Shown: one piece after another, positions 11,704-19,889 of the stretch | How positions within the stretch are numbered: position 1 is the stretch's first letter | Layout: each line of letters begins with the position of its first letter | Assembly (NCBI GenBank): GCA_001600055.1 | Contig: BCIV01000001.1 | Span: 1,791,774 to 1,855,773, forward strand | Direction: 5' to 3' | Length of the DNA stretch: 64,000 bases | DNA from: Filobasidium wieringae | Lineage: Eukaryota; Basidiomycota; Tremellomycetes; Filobasidiales; Filobasidiaceae | Notes under the pieces: model-generated | The model's input: the letters and a program-made list of their open reading frames with translations, nothing else | The model's database searches: none | What the model was told of the DNA's origin: nothing | Position numbers and translations under genes: made by a program

Positions 11704-14097
11704 ATGCCATCGACCATCCTCAAATCACAGTACGAACTCGCTCCACTGCCATCCCCCTCGACGTCGGTATTTCAATTCCTACTCCCACAAAACATATCCA
11801 ATCCAGACCATAAAGCGTTCATCGCTGCGGAATCCGACGAGTCGTACACTCGGTCACAACTTCGAACGAACGCTCTGCGACTCGGAGCCGGAATCAAGAG
11901 CCTCTTCGGGCCCTCGCCGTCACCCTCATCCCCGGGGAAGAAGAACGTGGCGCTAGTGTTCAGTCCCAACTCGATCCATTACCCGTTGATCTTCTTCGCA
12001 CTCCAAGCGACGCTCACCATCGCCTCCCTCGCCAACGCCTCTTACACCCCCAAAGAGCTCATCCACCAGCTCAGGGATGGGAAACCTACCGTCCTCTTCG
12101 TCCATCCTGCACTCTGGCCTGTCGCTCAGAAATCCCTCCAGGCGCTGGAACGGGAACCGCACGAGTCTGGTTGGGTGAGACGGGTCAAGGTGTTCTTCAC
12201 CGTGCCGGCTAGAGAACTGCCCGAGGAGAACCCGCGCGGGATAAAGTCGTTCGAGTCGCTCTACGTGGATGAAAAGGAGGTGCGGGGGTGGAATGGTGAT
12301 GAGCTGGGGAAAGAGGGGGATTTGGAGACGGCCGTTTTATGTTATTCCAGTGGGACCGTGAGTCGTACTTCCCCCGTTCTCTTCTCCTCCTCCTCTCACT
12401 CTCCTCCTGGTCAAAACTGACACCCGCACCCGCGCGCGCACAGACCGGACTGGCAAAAGGAGTAGAGACGACTCATCGTAACCTGACCCACGTCTCCGTC
12501 ATGGCAAAGGGACTCATGATCCCCCTCAACCCGGATACTGACAAAGTCATCGGCGTCTTGCCTTACTTCCGTGAGTCCCTGGCCGCCTTGAGAGCGCGAG
12601 TGCTCAGGTGAGGATAGGATGAGAGGTTGATTTGATTTGGATATACGCGCGCGCGGTAGATATTTATGGGATGGTCAAGTGAGTATCGGCTTGTGCTTTT
12701 CAATCGATGATGGCCCCCGACCCTGACCCTGAACGCTCCGCTCCCCCTCAGACTGGTCTGTTTTCCTCTAGTGGTGGGAATCCCCAACGTCACGTTACCC
12801 AAATTCGACCCCCTCTTGTTCCTAAAGACGATCCAGACGTACCGTATCACCTGGGCCCTCCTCGTCCCCCCCATCCTCGTCGTCCTAGCGAACCACCCCA
12901 TAGTGGACGAGTACGACCTCTCCTCCCTCCGCAGTATCATGTGCGGTGCTGCCCCGCTCGGAGAGGGGCTCACTCGGAAGGCCATCCAGCGATTGAACAG
13001 GGGGAAGAAGGAGGGGGAAGGGTTGACCATCAGTCAAGGGTACGGGTTGACGGAGACTACCGCACCCTGCATGGCCGTAAAGGTCGAAGATTCCGTCCGA
13101 AAGATCGGATCCGCCGGGAAACTGTTCCCCGGACTGGAAGCCAAGTTGATCGATCTGGATGGGAACGCGATCCCCATCTCCTTTGAGGGGGAGGGGAGGA
13201 GGAGCAAGCCCGGAGAGTTTTGTCTGAGAGGGTCGACGGTGATGAAGGGGTATTGGAACAACCCAAAGGCGACGGAAGGGACGTTCTTGGAGGATGGGTG
13301 GTATAGGACCGGAGATATCGCAGAGGTGGACGAGGAGGGGTTCTTCTAGTGGGTAATCGTGTTCTTCTTTCGACCTGCTGGGGAACTGATTGGGACACGC
13401 GCCGGGGGTAGTATTGTGGATCGTCTCAAGGAGTTGATCAAGTATAAAGGATTCCAAGGTGAGTCCCCGATTCCAATTCATCCTTATCCCCACTCACAAG
13501 TCGCGTTCTGACAATCATCACCCTTACCAACCAACCCCCTTCACACAGTCCCCCCGGCCGATCTAGAGGCCCTCCTCCTAACCCACCCCAAGGTGGACGA
13601 TGTCGGTGTCATCGGGATCGCCTCGGAAGCACAGGCGACGGAACTCCCTAGAGCCTATATCGTCCCCCAAGGAGGACTGGCCAGGTGGAAAACCCAGGAA
13701 GAGAGGGAAGGGTTGGAACGGGAGATCATTGCGTGGGTCCAGGAGAATGTGAGTGTTATGCCGTTCGAGAATTGGCTGGAATGGGATGGACGACCTGGGA
13801 AAGGCATGCTGATGAGGTGATTGGGTAGGTGGCTAATCATAAACGTCTGAGAGGAGGGGTCGTTTTTGTCGATGCCATCCCGAAAAGGTAAGTAATCATC
13901 GCGTTCTTTCCCTTTCCCGCGAGAAACTAGAACTGACTCTCTTCTCTCTCTCTCTCTCTCTCTTTTCGGACCCCTCCCCGCTCTATAGTCCGGCAGGGAA
14001 GATCCTTCGACGTGAACTGAGGGAGATGGCAAAGGTCGATGGACAACAGGATTCCAACGCGCTCAACACGACTCAACAGAAGATTGCTAATCTTTGA
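11704..14097 (+). CDS. 4-coumarate-CoA ligase-like acyl-CoA synthetase
   Basis: Eight exons: 11704-12357, 12444-12570, 12660-12678, 12752-13348, 13412-13458, 13549-13748, 13829-13887, 13989-14097; 603 aa. An ANL-superfamily adenylate-forming enzyme that activates a carboxylic acid with ATP and transfers it to CoA. Motifs: P-loop YSSGTTGLAKGV (214-225; the usual PKG proline is alanine), GYGLTETT (363-370), YRTGDIAEVDEEGFFY, hinge DRLKELIKYKGFQ and the catalytic lysine in SPAGKILRREL (K572). The third exon is only 19 nt (completes HIYGMVK). The tail ends ANL, not a canonical SKL peroxisomal signal. An aromatic or medium-chain substrate is likely but not determinable. GC-rich coding sequence. 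Confidence 0.92.
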
Positions 14098-15577
14098 ACG
14101 TGAGGGGGATGAGATGGATCGATCGGGTTGGGACGGATTTGGACGGATTTGGATACTAAAGGAAGAAAAGCATGAAAGGAAAAGGAGAATATCGTTTGTA
14201 ATTGATAGGAATCGATTCATGTGTATTTTATAGCATTCGAGATCGCTTATACGTTCGAGAGCGGGTTGCCGGTATCGCCCCTTCTCGTGCAACATTGCGT
14301 ATACTCGGTTGGCTTTTTCTTCTTTGTATGGCCTTCACTGATGGAGTAGGTCGGCTTAGGATAGCCTTGATTTGTTTACACAGGGGTATGACCAAGGGCC
14401 ATTCGATATCCTAGATTTCTTTGTGGAGATGATAAGGAAATGAGGGAAAGAAGCTGGAGTTTGATGGTCCATGTCCCCTTTGCGATATTGTTCTCGTTTC
14501 CTTATGCGTGAAACCCAAAGGTGGTTTACCTTCTTTAGGGGCAGCGCCTGCCAAAAAAAAGGGAACAAGCAAGATCATCCTGGCTCGACGTCTCATTCAT
14601 TCCGATCGCTCTCTCCAGTCAGTCCCATCCCTGGTAGGCTTCCGGACGAGCAGGGGTAGTAGTGCAAGAGAAGGCTTCCGAGATGCACGTAGCGGTGTCT
14701 CCATTAACAAGCGGTGGGATGACCTTCTAGCACAAAGGTACACAAACTTAAACTTACAGAGCTTGTTCTCGGAATTTTAGGTGTCGCCGTTCCCACAAGC
14801 GCCAGATCAGTGGTCCTATTCGCCTCTCGAATGTCAACGATGATCCCGAATGATTTGTCAGACGACTGGATGCATACGATTATGCGTCACAATGATGTTG
14901 GAATTGACCTGGTTAGTAAACCGTCGATTCTAGGGTCATTGACTATTTATCCCTACAGTAAGATCCACTGTGTGACTCGTCAGTATCTCGCTCAACACCC
15001 GCGAGCTCGGCTCAATAACCCCGTGCGCGTGGTTCCAGGGTCAGAGCAAATGTCTTCAAGCACACTCCCGTCTCTCGAAATGAAACAAGATTCAGGAAGA
15101 ACAGTTCAAGAATGGGTTGCAAAACCCGAATACCTCCTCGTCCTGATGTCACATGGCTTTCAAACACGATACACTGCTGCATGTTTGGTAATTGTGTTGG
15201 CCGGATCGACAACGCACACGGCAGTTTTAGGACGTCGTCATACGGTTTGTTTCAGATCTTCCGAGTATCAAAGTCATTTCAGTATCAATCTCAGCGTTGT
15301 TTTCTCTGTTACATCGGTCTCGGATGTCTCCATTGAAGCCCCAAACGCCACCTTCGCTTCTTTTTCCTTATCTGCTTGGCCTGCTGGGGGAGGATCTCCT
15401 TCATGGTACATCTGTTATGACCGCGTGCAGACTTTACTGTGTTCAATTCCAAAACAGCCACGGATTGCCGAGCCGCAACCATACTGTTTCGGTAGTGATG
15501 AATCGAGAAATTCATATTATGCTAAGATTTTGTAATTGTGGAATATAAATTTTCTTGACAAAAGCCATATATCGGAA
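14098..15577. other. Long intergenic region with one doubtful ORF
   Basis: About 1.5 kb without a recognisable gene. One open frame of 241 codons (14810-15535, +) starts MVLFASRMST. It is serine-rich, shows no recognisable motif and no flanking exon could be added, so it is probably chance. Nothing else supported. Confidence 0.4.
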
Positions 15578-15661
15578 AGCGTCGTGGTGTATTGGAAACA
15601 TGCTGGGCTCATACAATTATGGCGTTACCCAGAGTGAGAGGATCGATACCTCTCGACGCTA
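15578..15661 (+). tRNA. tRNA-Met (CAU), elongator type, with intron
   Basis: The acceptor stem AGCGTCG (15578-15584) pairs perfectly with CGACGCT (15654-15660) and the discriminator is A. The anticodon stem CTGGG/CCCAG closes loop CTCATAA, giving anticodon CAT at 15610-15612. A 13-nt intron (about 15614-15626) sits one base 3' of the anticodon, the canonical position. The T-stem AGAGG/CCTCT encloses ATCGATA, a variant of the usual TTCGANT loop. A T-run at 15666-15670 can end Pol III transcription. It lies in the opposite functional context to protein genes, as an isolated single tRNA. Confidence 0.8.
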
Positions 15662-15804
15662 ATGTCTTTTTGCCCGATTTCTTTTTGTATCCGAATCTTG
15701 TTGATTTTGTCACGATGTAGAGCATATGAATTCCGATCGAGTTATCTTTGATCATTACTACACAACAGGTGGGCTTGAGTCCATCGAATATACGCAAGAG
15801 AGAG

Positions 15805-17411
15805 ATGAGCCGGTCATCAGCAGACAAGAGGGACGTGTATTACCGTTTATGTGAGATGGGTCTCCTTCTCCGAACGCCGAACATGACTGACGAGGAACGG
15901 CATGGCTCTCTTAGGCAAGAGCGAAGGTGGGTCTGCTATGTATCGACACTGCTTGTCACCCCGCTGAGGTGTCTCCCTTGATAAATCAGGCTACAGAGCT
16001 CGGTCTGCATATAAACTACTACATCTAGGTAAAACTAAAGTGGGACCTCTTCGTCGTTGGGATGATGCTTATTAAAGATATTCTGTGGGCATCTTACAGA
16101 TGAAGAGTTCGACTTGTTTCGAGGGGTCAAAGTTGCTTGCGACTTCTGTGCTGCACCCGGATCATGGAGTCAAGTGCTTAGTAGGAAACTGAGGTAAGTT
16201 TCTATATGACTAGATTTCGATTGATGCTGAAGACTGGCTACATAGACCGGCTGGTAAGCAGGACCCAGCCAAGATTGTTTCCATCGATCTGCAGCCTATG
16301 GTAAGACTCTTACCTGCTTGTCAATTATCCGAGCTGATGCGAGGGTACTCTTGATGTATAGGCACCGCTTCCTGGAGTGACGATCATACATGCGGATATC
16401 ACATTACCTACGACGCACGACCTCATGATGAACGCAATGGGAGGGGAGAAGGCGGACCTCGCAGTATGCGATGGCGCCCCAGAAGGTGATCCAGGTCGCA
16501 TACTCGTTGTCATTGGTAATTCCCTCAGCTGAAACAATCTCTCGTTCGACACAAACAGTGACAGGCGTGCACGATCTGGATGCTTATCTCCATGCGCAAC
16601 TCCTCCTTGCGGTAAGCTTCAATATCTGGTAATAAATTCTGAAGCACCGCTTAAATCCACTACTATAGGCTACTACACTGGCACTTCCACTCCTTGCCCC
16701 TCATGCCACTCTGATATTCAAAGTCTTCCTTTCCCCCTCGGATCCGGCTGGGGAAGTCTTGATCTCGCAGCTGGAACCATTCTTCACTTCACCTCAGCGA
16801 GGTGACCCTACGATAGATGACACGAAGAAGAACCCTTACCTCAAAGGTGGATGCGAGATGAAGGGATACGACCAGTATGGACGAAGAGGGGGCGTCTGGG
16901 TGCGGAAGCCCCGTAGTAGTCGAGCAGGAAGTGCAGGTGAGCTTCCGTTGTCCGGCACGTTCTGACCCATTCCTGTTCGACTCACTCTGCTTCATCTGTA
17001 GAGCATTTCCTTGTATGCCGAAACTTCAATCCAGCATCTCTACCAGCCAACTTCGATTCGAAGGTTCTTACTCAGATTCAATCATTGTCTTTGGAGCCAC
17101 CAAAAGAAGCTCAGGGTGTACTCGTGGCTGAAGCGTCTCGTAACGATCAAAAGCAGATGACGAACGTGACGGTTCTGTACTTTGCTTCAATCCGAACGCA
17201 CCTGAAAGTAGAGCAGGAAACCTATCAAACCGTACCAACCCTAGTAGGGTTGAAGGATGAGATCATAGCTCGACATCCTGACCCTACGACGCGATCGATC
17301 TTGGAAGGTTCTATGTGGAGCGTTGGAGATGAGATGGCCGATTTGGAAGACGACGTCGAGCTGAAGGAAAGGGACGTTGTTGCTGTGATACCGCCAGTTA
17401 GTGGAGGATGA
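15805..17411 (+). CDS. TRM7: Trm7 tRNA 2'-O-methyltransferase fused to MoaD/MOCS2A sulfur carrier
   Basis: Eight exons: 15805-15859, 15990-16028, 16100-16193, 16246-16300, 16362-16485, 16559-16611, 16669-16936, 17002-17411; 365 aa, phases consistent. Residues 1 to about 260 are an FtsJ/Trm7 methyltransferase, which modifies ribose 32 and 34 of the tRNA anticodon loop: [32 protein letters not shown] (SAM site), [21 protein letters not shown] and KPRSSR; the catalytic K27-D118-K158-E230 set is complete. The last exon runs on without a stop into residues 282-365, a MoaD-type ubiquitin-like domain: [27 protein letters not shown] and [16 protein letters not shown], the thiocarboxylate-forming tail of molybdopterin synthase's small subunit. 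An in-frame ATG (17157) starts the MoaD part, so internal initiation is possible. The intron 1 donor (GTCTCC) is weak. Confidence 0.88.
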
Positions 17412-18191
17412 TCGCGTTTGATCTATAATTATTTTGACCATATCAGCGGAGCAGCGGTTTGATTGTAGCGGGTCTGTCGTATGACACAGCGACCATGTCA
17501 ACGATCCGGAAAACGAGACTGGGCGCTGGATCGCTCGCAGATGTAACAAAAAACGAGCCCTCCACAATCAACACGGGTTCATCATGCAACTGTGATTGGG
17601 TTCAGTCTACTCACTCTCTACATTCGGACTTGTCAGTAAATCGAGGGTTGAAGTGATTTTCGGAAGTATGCCCGTACGGAATGTACGGGCATAGCATAAC
17701 CCGGCGACATCCTGTGACTGGAGTCTGGCATCGTATGATGTACATTGGTTCTGGTATAGGAGCGATACAAGACAGTCTTGAAGGCAGAATGAGGGACTAC
17801 AGAAAGATTCGTAATAAGACACGCGGTTGGGAGTTGGCACACAAGGGGTCATCTCATGCAAAATCTGCTTGGCCGGAGGAAGATGCATGGTTTGGGATGG
17901 AGGTGGAGGAAACATGGTTTGCTCTTGTCCGGGTACAGCTGACTGAAACGCGAGTTGAGAAGTGCGCTCCAGAAAAACACCTACTGCTAGTGAACCACAG
18001 GTAGTACGGTCAATTGGTTCATTCGATTTCGATTATATCGGTTCAACATCTGGAGGAATGATACAGCTAGCTCAGGCATTATACTACGACTTCAAGCAGG
18101 GTAGAATAAAGGGTTCAAATACGAGAGGTGAGATAGGGAGTGTCGTTCGTGGAAAGAGGGAGGGTGTCGTCAAGTGCAAGAAGGGACACGT
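17412..18191. other. Intergenic, hairpin but no supported gene
   Basis: A 780-bp spacer between convergent 3' ends. Two overlapping open frames (17681-18004 and 17962-18240, +) show no recognised motif and could not be linked by convincing splice sites. A perfect inverted repeat is annotated separately at 17667-17693. Confidence 0.4.
17667..17693. repeat. Perfect 11-bp inverted repeat (hairpin)
   Basis: TATGCCCGTAC, a 5-base loop GGAAT, then GTACGGGCATA. The stem pairs at all 11 positions with 5 internal G-C pairs. It lies about 260 bp past the TRM7-MOCS2A stop codon in the spacer between convergent genes. It could be a 3'-end or boundary element, or chance. Confidence 0.7.
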
Positions 18192-19374
18192 TTACTTGAG
18201 GGGAACACCGGTGGATCCGTGTCCGTCGAGTTCTCGCTGATGCACGTACTTTCCGTTGTGCCAGACGAGACCGTGGGGACCCTTGGACTCGGGGTGCTTG
18301 TCAGCAACGTCGTAACCGCTGCCAGCTGCAGGTAGGGAAGAACAATGGATGAGTGCTCTGAAACGATGAAATACGAGTGAGCGTTCAGATGAACTTACAC
18401 TTCTGGTGCTCCTTCAACTCTTGCTTCAACTCGTCAATGGGACCGTTGTCGTGGTGGCCTTTTCCAGTCATCTTCTCGCTCAAAGACTCCTTCTTGGAGT
18501 GACCGGCACCGGCACCGACGCCAGCCAATCCAGCAGCACCAGCACCGACTCCGGCACCGGTTGCGAGACCAGTGGATCGGGCTCCAGTGGCAACACCGGT
18601 GGTACCGGTGGACTGACCGGGAGCAAAGTGGGTCTGTCCGGTGATGGAGTCGTTGACGATTCCCTCGTATCCGGAAGTGTGGTCCCTAGCACCGACATCG
18701 GCAACAACAGCGGAGGCGACACCGGTAGCACCTGCACCAGCGGCGAGGTTTCGTCCAGTGTGGGAAGAGGACTCGTGGTTGTGACCGAGACCAGAGCCGA
18801 CGTTGGTCTGCTCGTACTTTCCGTCACGAGACGAAGAGTCGTGGTGACCAGGAGCCAAAGCAGCCTTGACACCGGCAGCGTTAACACCACGGTCACCGGT
18901 CCTGTCTCCGGTCAAACCAGAGGTGGAGGAGTGGTGGTGGTGGTCACCCGTTCGGTCGGTCCCTACTCGGCTAGCATCGGATTCGAAAGCGGTGGGACCT
19001 CCGTGTCCTCCACCGATACCCTTGTCACCAGAGGTGGTGTTTCGGGCAGAAGTGTCGTACTTGTCGGTAGCGTTGGAAGCGGCGGCACCGACGGCGGTTC
19101 GGTGGGACTCTCCCTGGTTGTCACGGTGAGAGTGGTCGTGGGTACCGGAGAGGCCAGAAGATCCGGTGAGACCGTGAGTTCCGGTGGATCCTCCAGTGGT
19201 GGTAGTGGTGGCAGGGTGAGCAGGGAAAGAAGAGGTGGAACCTCCGCCGATCTGTTGGACAGTTTGTCAGAGACATGTCGCCGAGGCACCTAGAATGTTG
19301 CCTGTACTTACGGGGGCACCCAAGTTCAATCCATCAAGAGCTCCAGCGGGGTGAGAGATACGTTCGGTAGACAT
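18192..19374 (-). CDS. Glycine/histidine-rich hydrophilin-like protein
   Basis: Exons in transcript order: 19374-19312, 19251-18399, 18325-18192; 349 aa. The body is strongly hydrophilic and built from Gly, Ser, Thr, His and Asp, with a histidine run near DRTGDHHHHSS, repeated TGDRTGDRG, and one non-polar stretch of alternating Gly/Ala (ATGAGVGAGAAGLAG) like a glycine zipper. The C-terminal part is more ordered: IDELKQELKEHQK, then SGYDVADKHPESKGPHG and VWHNGKYVH. High glycine and hydrophilicity fit hydrophilins/LEA-like desiccation and stress proteins, but no named family is recognised. A TATATAAA box (minus strand, about 19490-19499) lies about 120 bp before the ATG and a CRE-like TGACGTAA at 19590-19597, suggesting inducible transcription. 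Confidence 0.75.
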
Positions 19375-19889
19375 TGTTATTCGAGGTATGTGTTTGTGGT
19401 AGGTGTTGTGGTTGTGGTGGTAGTGGTTGTTGTGGTAAAGCGTGTGAGGGGAAGCAGTTGGCGATATTGCGACGCTTTGCGAGTCGCGGTTTATATAGAA
19501 ATGACGCATTCTCCCGTTCTGCGACTGTTTGTTTCTCATCGAACATCCACGGACACGCTCTTCCTCCGCGTCATCGCTGCTTCCAACGATGACGTAACCG
19601 ACATCAATTTCGTCATCGCGCTCATCACATGCGGATGCAAAAAGTAGTCGTCAATTGCCAGAAACCGCCAGTTTCGTAGATCATCTTCGGGTTTAGCTTC
19701 CGCCTTTTGTTCGATCAGATACGGCAATAATGAAAGCTTGTGTACATCTCGGCTGATACCAACTAGTTTACAGAGTAACGCTACAAGCTACAAGGTTTCG
19801 TGACATCGTCTAAGCTCATTCATCAGCATCCCATCCTATCCATCCATCTTCCTGCTGCACACGCGACCGTCCATCTCGTCTCCTTCTCA
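19375..19889. promoter_or_regulatory. Promoter region of the hydrophilin-like gene
   Basis: A 515-bp spacer holding the hydrophilin leader (a GTGGTT-type repeat on the + strand, read as CAACCAC in the mRNA), the TATA box near 19495 and the CRE-like TGACGTAA at 19590-19597. The far half holds only short frames next to the 3' end of the RING-like gene. Confidence 0.5.

Follow-up and report, generated by a model that had tools for sequence, protein, structure and literature searches.

The small subunit of molybdopterin synthase, MOCS2A or MoaD, ordinarily exists on its own, as a protein of about 80-90 amino acids (5mpo, 1fm0). Sulfur carriers of this kind are also found as parts of larger proteins; in the available portions of PMC1779556, an aldehyde ferredoxin oxidoreductase of Azoarcus carries a C-terminal MoaD, and in actinobacteria a sulfite reductase is joined to ThiS, again with the enzyme preceding the carrier. 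MoaX and other MoaD-MoaE fusions, as presented in excerpts of PMC4326299 and PMC11237513, likewise place MoaD within a larger chain; there, however, MoaD comes first, the Gly-Gly of MoaX is internal, and the protein has to be cleaved after it to be active (PMC4326299). For eukaryotes, the excerpted text of PMC9228816 describes a molybdopterin-synthase subunit joined to a different functional domain, namely Drosophila MoaE-MBIP, which involves the large subunit and, as partner, a component of the ATAC chromatin complex.

Here, we describe a gene of Filobasidium wieringae, TRM7-MoaD, which occupies positions 15805-17411 on the + strand of a 64,000-nt window (the whole stretch of DNA that was analysed) and joins a Trm7-type tRNA methyltransferase to a C-terminal MoaD. 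It shares with the Azoarcus and actinobacterial proteins, as far as the passages cited above describe them, the order of enzyme first and sulfur carrier last, whereas their partners are enzymes of Mo/W or sulfur metabolism and MoaD here is attached to a eukaryotic RNA methyltransferase. Neither the two domain families nor the carrier-last order is new; the pairing of Trm7 with MoaD appears to be. The original prediction knew of no described fusion of the two, in keeping with a search of the full-text literature, with subscription journals and fungal protein databases outside its scope, which gave none among the matches listed. Term searches of the accessible parts of the review PMC13299246 (no mention of a fusion, fungi or MoaD) and of PMC6356722 (no mention of a fusion) agree with this, and the accessible part of the Cryptococcus Trm7 paper PMC8963569 is without gene details. 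A comparison of the fusion with viral contigs gave no match.

Gene structure and reading frame

A splice model rebuilds the gene from nine exons that together encode 366 aa (predicted mass 40.1 kDa). All eight introns are of the GT..AG type, measure 52-73 bases and have consistent phases, and four of the eight contain CTNAY, a branch-point-like sequence. An earlier eight-exon model, said to keep phase throughout, had missed a 12-base microexon at 15915-15926, and nine exons are needed for a coherent Trm7 N-terminus. With the microexon in place, the encoded peptide aligns gap-free to yeast and human Trm7; an exon 1 running on to 15926 was considered and rejected, as the downstream frame is lost. 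The nine-exon model also corrects the length from 365 to 366 aa, and the residues that had been numbered E230 and M282 become E231 and Met283 (ATG at 17157). The features of the gene are as follows:

15805..15850, + strand: exon 1, with the start ATG (splice model; the peptide matches the Trm7/FTSJ1 N-terminus)
15915..15926, + strand: exon 2, the 12-base microexon (splice model)
15990..16028, + strand: exon 3, which holds K28 at 16013-16015 (splice model)
16100..16193, + strand: exon 4, SAM-binding segment (splice model and alignment to PDB relatives)
16246..16300, + strand: exon 5 (splice model)
16362..16485, + strand: exon 6, which holds D119 at 16470-16472, within CDGAP
16559..16611, + strand: exon 7 (splice model)
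16669..16936, + strand: exon 8, which holds K159 at 16720-16722 and whose last base is the first base of the E231 codon
17002..17411, + strand: exon 9, with the end of Trm7, the linker, the MoaD domain and the stop codon
17037..17156, + strand: linker, residues 243-282, without a match to the Trm7 C-terminal block
17157..17411, + strand: MoaD/MOCS2A domain, residues 283-366, beginning with the ATG of Met283 at 17157 and ending in Gly-Gly-stop

The E231 codon is split by the last intron (16936 + 17002-17003), and exon 9 completes the Trm7 motif that contains this catalytic Glu. The central claim of the original prediction, that the exon at 17002-17411 carries the catalytic Glu and continues without interruption into a complete MoaD domain that closes with PPVSGG-TGA, was borne out; the TGA lies at 17409-17411, there is no stop codon between the catalytic Glu and the end of MoaD, and the Trm7-MoaD fusion is real in sequence. 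Retention of an intron, tried as a route to a short Trm7, was rejected: any of the eight introns, if kept, ends the reading frame no later than codon 240, and retained intron 8 does so at codon 240 with the sequence changed from residue 231 onward. Because no stop intervenes between the Glu and the MoaD end, and because no retained intron yields a complete Trm7, any complete Trm7 made from this gene is predicted to read into MoaD, barring splicing within exon 9 that would cost it the VCRNFNP segment. Nor is MoaD set off as a small protein of its own by a stop codon, an obligatory intron or a detected second gene, although a processed or internally initiated form may exist.

The openness of the linker is by itself weak evidence, because the chance of adjacent genes sharing a frame with an open 40-codon linker is about 5%, calculated as (1/3)(61/64)^40, and because shuffling of the linker left an open frame in 1186 of 10000 cases. 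Its codon content is coding-like, with as high a score in 3 of 854 flanking non-coding 40-codon windows, which overlap and are not independent, and in 0 of the 164 such windows that are open; the codon table was compiled from frames of >=250 aa that lack stops, on either strand of the analysed stretch, to which the Trm7 and MoaD parts of the fusion were added. With 120 bases separating the domains, there would be little room for a terminator and a promoter. In an AlphaFold2 model of exon 9 the pLDDT block means drop along the linker from 83 to 56-62, and the linker is accordingly predicted to be partly flexible.

The Trm7 half and its missing tail

Residues 1-242 are most likely the organism's Trm7, a 2'-O-methyltransferase for the tRNA anticodon loop, and are predicted to carry out this methylation. 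The FtsJ family (PF01728) covers residues 21-239 with 141.2 bits against a cut-off of 24.1 (E 4.5e-41), and the best sequence matches in the PDB are human FTSJ1 (8y2o, 192.4 bits) and yeast Trm7 (6jp6, 177.6). Other FtsJ types score lower (Spb1 <=102.4 bits, mitochondrial methyltransferase 2 <=82.4), so that on PDB sequence comparison Trm7/FTSJ1 is closer to the window protein than Spb1 or Mrm2. The two solved relatives share with it the FtsJ domain, the N-terminus, the PRSSR..S.E.F.VC motif and the K-D-K-E catalytic tetrad, which is intact as K28, D119, K159 and E231; the counterparts in human FTSJ1, as given in the accessible part of PMC12145424, are K28, D116, K156 and E191. A separate peculiarity of this half is an insertion of about 34 residues before the PRSSR motif (residues 183-216; 16792-16893, + strand), which is absent from human FTSJ1.

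The fusion is the only Trm7 found in the genome (19,759,124 bases in 33 contigs) with the FtsJ profile and a 282-aa Trm7 query. The query matched the fusion locus, Spb1 and an Mrm2-like gene only. A second Trm7 was considered and rejected, the other FtsJ matches being Spb1, the Mrm2-like gene and a general class I methyltransferase; the remaining FtsJ match is short and, at 23.5 bits on contig C21, falls just under the family cut-off (24.1).

The fusion and Trm7/FTSJ1 part company at the C-terminus. Trm7/FTSJ1 continues in a tail of about 100 aa, whereas the fusion has a 40-aa linker and MoaD instead. In yeast Trm7 the tail extends some 100 residues past the NP of the PRSSR..S.E.F.VC-region motif, and the yeast and human tails have in common a CG.L.S.DSD block and a PPY..A..LKR.G end. 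The similarity of the window protein to yeast Trm7 ends shortly past this NP, after NPPSNWTPKL, and the CG.L.S.DSD block has no counterpart in linker residues 243-282. A lost C-terminal exon just downstream was sought by eye and rejected, with none among the listed stop-to-stop frames of >=25 aa; in the frame at 17438-17656, the segment VAGLSYDTA is faintly like the block, although it lies past the stop and in another frame.

The available text of PMC12145424 states that Phe222-Ser243 of human FTSJ1 are essential for binding WDR6, and that the C-terminal region also binds THADA, for which Cys238 seems crucial. Counted on the 8y2o chain with a tag offset of 18, Cys238 is the C of the CG.L.S.DSD block. 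As judged by alignment, then, the Trm7 half is without a C-terminal block that overlaps the human WDR6-binding region, a feature that had gone unremarked in the earlier account of the locus. Because this block is missing, it is uncertain whether this Trm7 would function with the usual adaptors; a THADA/Trm732-family gene (PF10350) was found on contig C17.

The MoaD half and its partners in the genome

The ThiS family (PF02597) is matched over its full length, 1-76 of 76, by residues 288-366, with 30.6 bits against a cut-off of 22.5 (E 5.1e-7); like the FtsJ match, this exceeds what chance would give. The TIGR01682 moaD model is likewise matched throughout (1-80 of 80, E 4.3e-10), although its 40.3 bits fall below the equivalog cut-off of 66.15, a value set for prokaryote annotation. 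Among PDB sequences, human MOCS2A comes closest (5mpo, E 4.3e-4), and identity with four solved relatives ranges from 27 to 39%. AlphaFold2, supplied with exon 9 and an alignment of 65 prokaryote MoaDs, models the domain as a beta-grasp, with pLDDT block means of 93-97 and a value of 71 for the last five residues. Foldseek matches 1-7 in the PDB are all molybdopterin-synthase small subunits, human MOCS2A among them, at a TMt of 0.76-0.83; the TMq of 0.47-0.54 is low because the query carries the linker.

The prokaryote relatives used for reference are the best 80 of at least 103 confirmed loci found with one scan pattern, and do not amount to a survey of fusions. A GG-stop end is present in 71 of these 80, and for 67 of them the retrieved flanking sequence contains a match to the MoaE exon of the window organism, with 11 loci of the set measuring less than 3000 bases; from both counts, the relatives are mostly molybdopterin-synthase small subunits. 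A tblastn search of the Trm7 part against the same best 80 of at least 103 loci gave no match. The alignment retained the 65 of 80 with a usable start, a length of 70-110 aa and a GG end. Eight invariant columns in it were dropped as evidence for MoaD, since seven had been preselected by the scan pattern or the GG filter and Phe291 alone is independent.

In sum of its parts, the domain resembles MOCS2A/MoaD (5mpo, 1fm0) in its beta-grasp fold, in its PPVSGG-stop end and in the company of MoaE and a Uba4-like E1 in the genome; it differs in that, instead of being free, it stands behind a tRNA methyltransferase. A free C-terminal Gly-Gly, as first proposed, is indeed kept, with PPVSGG-TGA closing the chain.

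A stand-alone MOCS2A was also sought elsewhere in the genome, a check put forward with the original prediction, and none was found, the fused copy being the only ThiS/MoaD detected. PF02597 and the 84-aa MoaD query (E up to 10) each gave only the fusion locus, and a second, free MoaD was rejected accordingly; these searches read exons singly, and a copy split into very small exons could escape them. The pathway around it is represented by a MoaE on contig C1 with the conserved IWK.E.Y segment, by MoaA and MoaC on contig C8, and by an E1 on contig C2 whose best solved relative is Uba4; Urm1 is on contig C4. The Uba4-type E1 and the Urm1 that the original prediction had invoked are thus both encoded. 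Pfam did not find a rhodanese domain (PF00581) at the E1 locus; the next open frame there shows faint similarity to Uba4 (E 0.0044) and to a yeast rhodanese-type protein (E 0.093). Four loci, on contigs C4, C1, C10 and C20, encode the sulfite oxidase/nitrate reductase molybdopterin domain; the C4 locus, the one compared with solved structures, is closest to nitrate reductase and has a cytochrome b5 domain nearby. Because genes of the molybdenum-cofactor pathway are present and no other MoaD was found, the fused MoaD is probably functional.

The MoaA-type (Mob_synth_C) and MoaC domains on contig C8 lie close together on one strand (locus L037 1235-2872) and possibly form one gene like the fungal cnxABC.

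Working of the fusion and alternative readings

On balance, we favour one gene that gives one bifunctional 366-aa protein, with Trm7 at residues 1-242 and the only MOCS2A/MoaD found at 283-366, and we regard this as fairly probable. We infer that the cell produces the protein at full length and that each half works without being separated; their union would owe more to accidental co-expression than to catalytic coupling. The fusion would be translated whole, with MoaD tethered on the linker; placed at the C-terminus, MoaD would keep its Gly-Gly free and accessible to the E1. The Uba4-type E1 would then thiocarboxylate the Gly-Gly of the tethered MoaD, and MoaE would accept the MoaD tail, with the sulfur being passed to cPMP to give molybdopterin. 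Cleavage would be needless for this, in contrast with the MoaD-MoaE fusions that have the Gly-Gly inside the chain.

Translation of the protein as a whole would make molybdopterin synthesis dependent on a tRNA-modifying enzyme, and the two functions could be lost or regulated only together. It would also allow a test for coordination between the modification of tRNA and the synthesis of the molybdenum cofactor, two processes served by a common Uba4/MOCS3-type E1, and the gene offers a natural test both of a sulfur carrier with a large N-terminal partner and of Trm7 action without the usual C-terminal tail.

A nested gene, which we consider unlikely but the first of the alternatives to be weighed, would produce, in addition to the fusion, a short transcript from a promoter in TRM7 exon 8, intron 8 or early exon 9, and from it a free MoaD of 84 aa (9.3 kDa) starting at Met283. 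In alignment, the first residues of the 65 bacterial MoaDs fall between -2 and +6 relative to Met283, a fit biased by the picking of nearest starts, and this closeness to the usual MoaD start would suggest either a recent fusion or a second use retained through an internal promoter. A transcript starting between coding-sequence offset 704 and Met283 (846) would meet Met283 first, as there is no AUG between these points. Leaky scanning lets the single human gene MOCS2 encode two proteins, according to the accessible part of PMC9607355. On the full mRNA of TRM7-MoaD, however, 19 AUGs (the TRM7 start included) come before Met283, which makes scanning not credible, and the base at -3 of the Met283 ATG is C; for these two reasons the internal start at M282 (Met283 here) raised in the original prediction is unlikely to be reached by scanning.

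Alternatively, the fusion could be made whole and then cut in the linker into a free Trm7 and a free MoaD. Such a cut would suit the distal half of the linker, where the pLDDT block means are 56 and 62, low values of a kind common in flexible stretches, and precedents are MoaX, cut between MoaD and MoaE in the text available of PMC4326299, and MOCS1AB, likewise cut in that of PMC9607355. Since cutting is unnecessary for freeing the Gly-Gly end of Trm7-MoaD, we judge this improbable.

We hold it to be just as doubtful that the two activities are coupled, with MoaD replacing a lost adaptor tail and tying Trm7 to Uba4 and MoaE, so that sulfur or cofactor status would alter Cm32/Gm34 methylation. 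The yeast/human Trm7 C-terminal block is undetectable ahead of the MoaD domain, and MOCS2A and URM1 are both adenylated by human MOCS3 in the available part of PMC9228816. Against this, the shared E1 type is the one link between the two activities; a THADA/Trm732-family gene is still in the genome; and the block may already have been lost before the fusion arose, or may persist in the linker in diverged form. There is little likelihood that Uba4 and MoaE dock on Trm7 to make the protein a bridge between the cofactor and the tRNA sulfur-relay branches.

Finally, it is very improbable that there is no true fusion in vivo, owing to an assembly error or to unrecognised splicing within exon 9 that parts the halves, because, although a donor-like GTATGC lies at 17013 with four possible acceptors 40-200 bases downstream, all four of these splices would delete the conserved VCRNFNP of Trm7, and three of them would stay in frame with MoaD while the fourth (17013-17211) would shift the frame and lose MoaD. 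The ATG of Met283 is directly preceded by CAG, and a splice at 17013-17156 would be in frame (144 bases) and delete the linker together with VCRNFNP.

The bifunctional protein remains the preferred reading, and three observations concern the neighbourhood of its gene. An Rfam search of 14000-19000 gave no match. ARAGORN, with introns allowed, places a tRNA-Met(CAT) with a 13-base anticodon-loop intron at 15578-15661 (+ strand), and without introns it finds none there; this tRNA is separated from the TRM7 start codon by 143 bases, and its AGCG start looks initiator-type. On the downstream side, a repetitive stretch at about 18200-19380, recognised by eye in the raw sequence, may encode a minus-strand protein.
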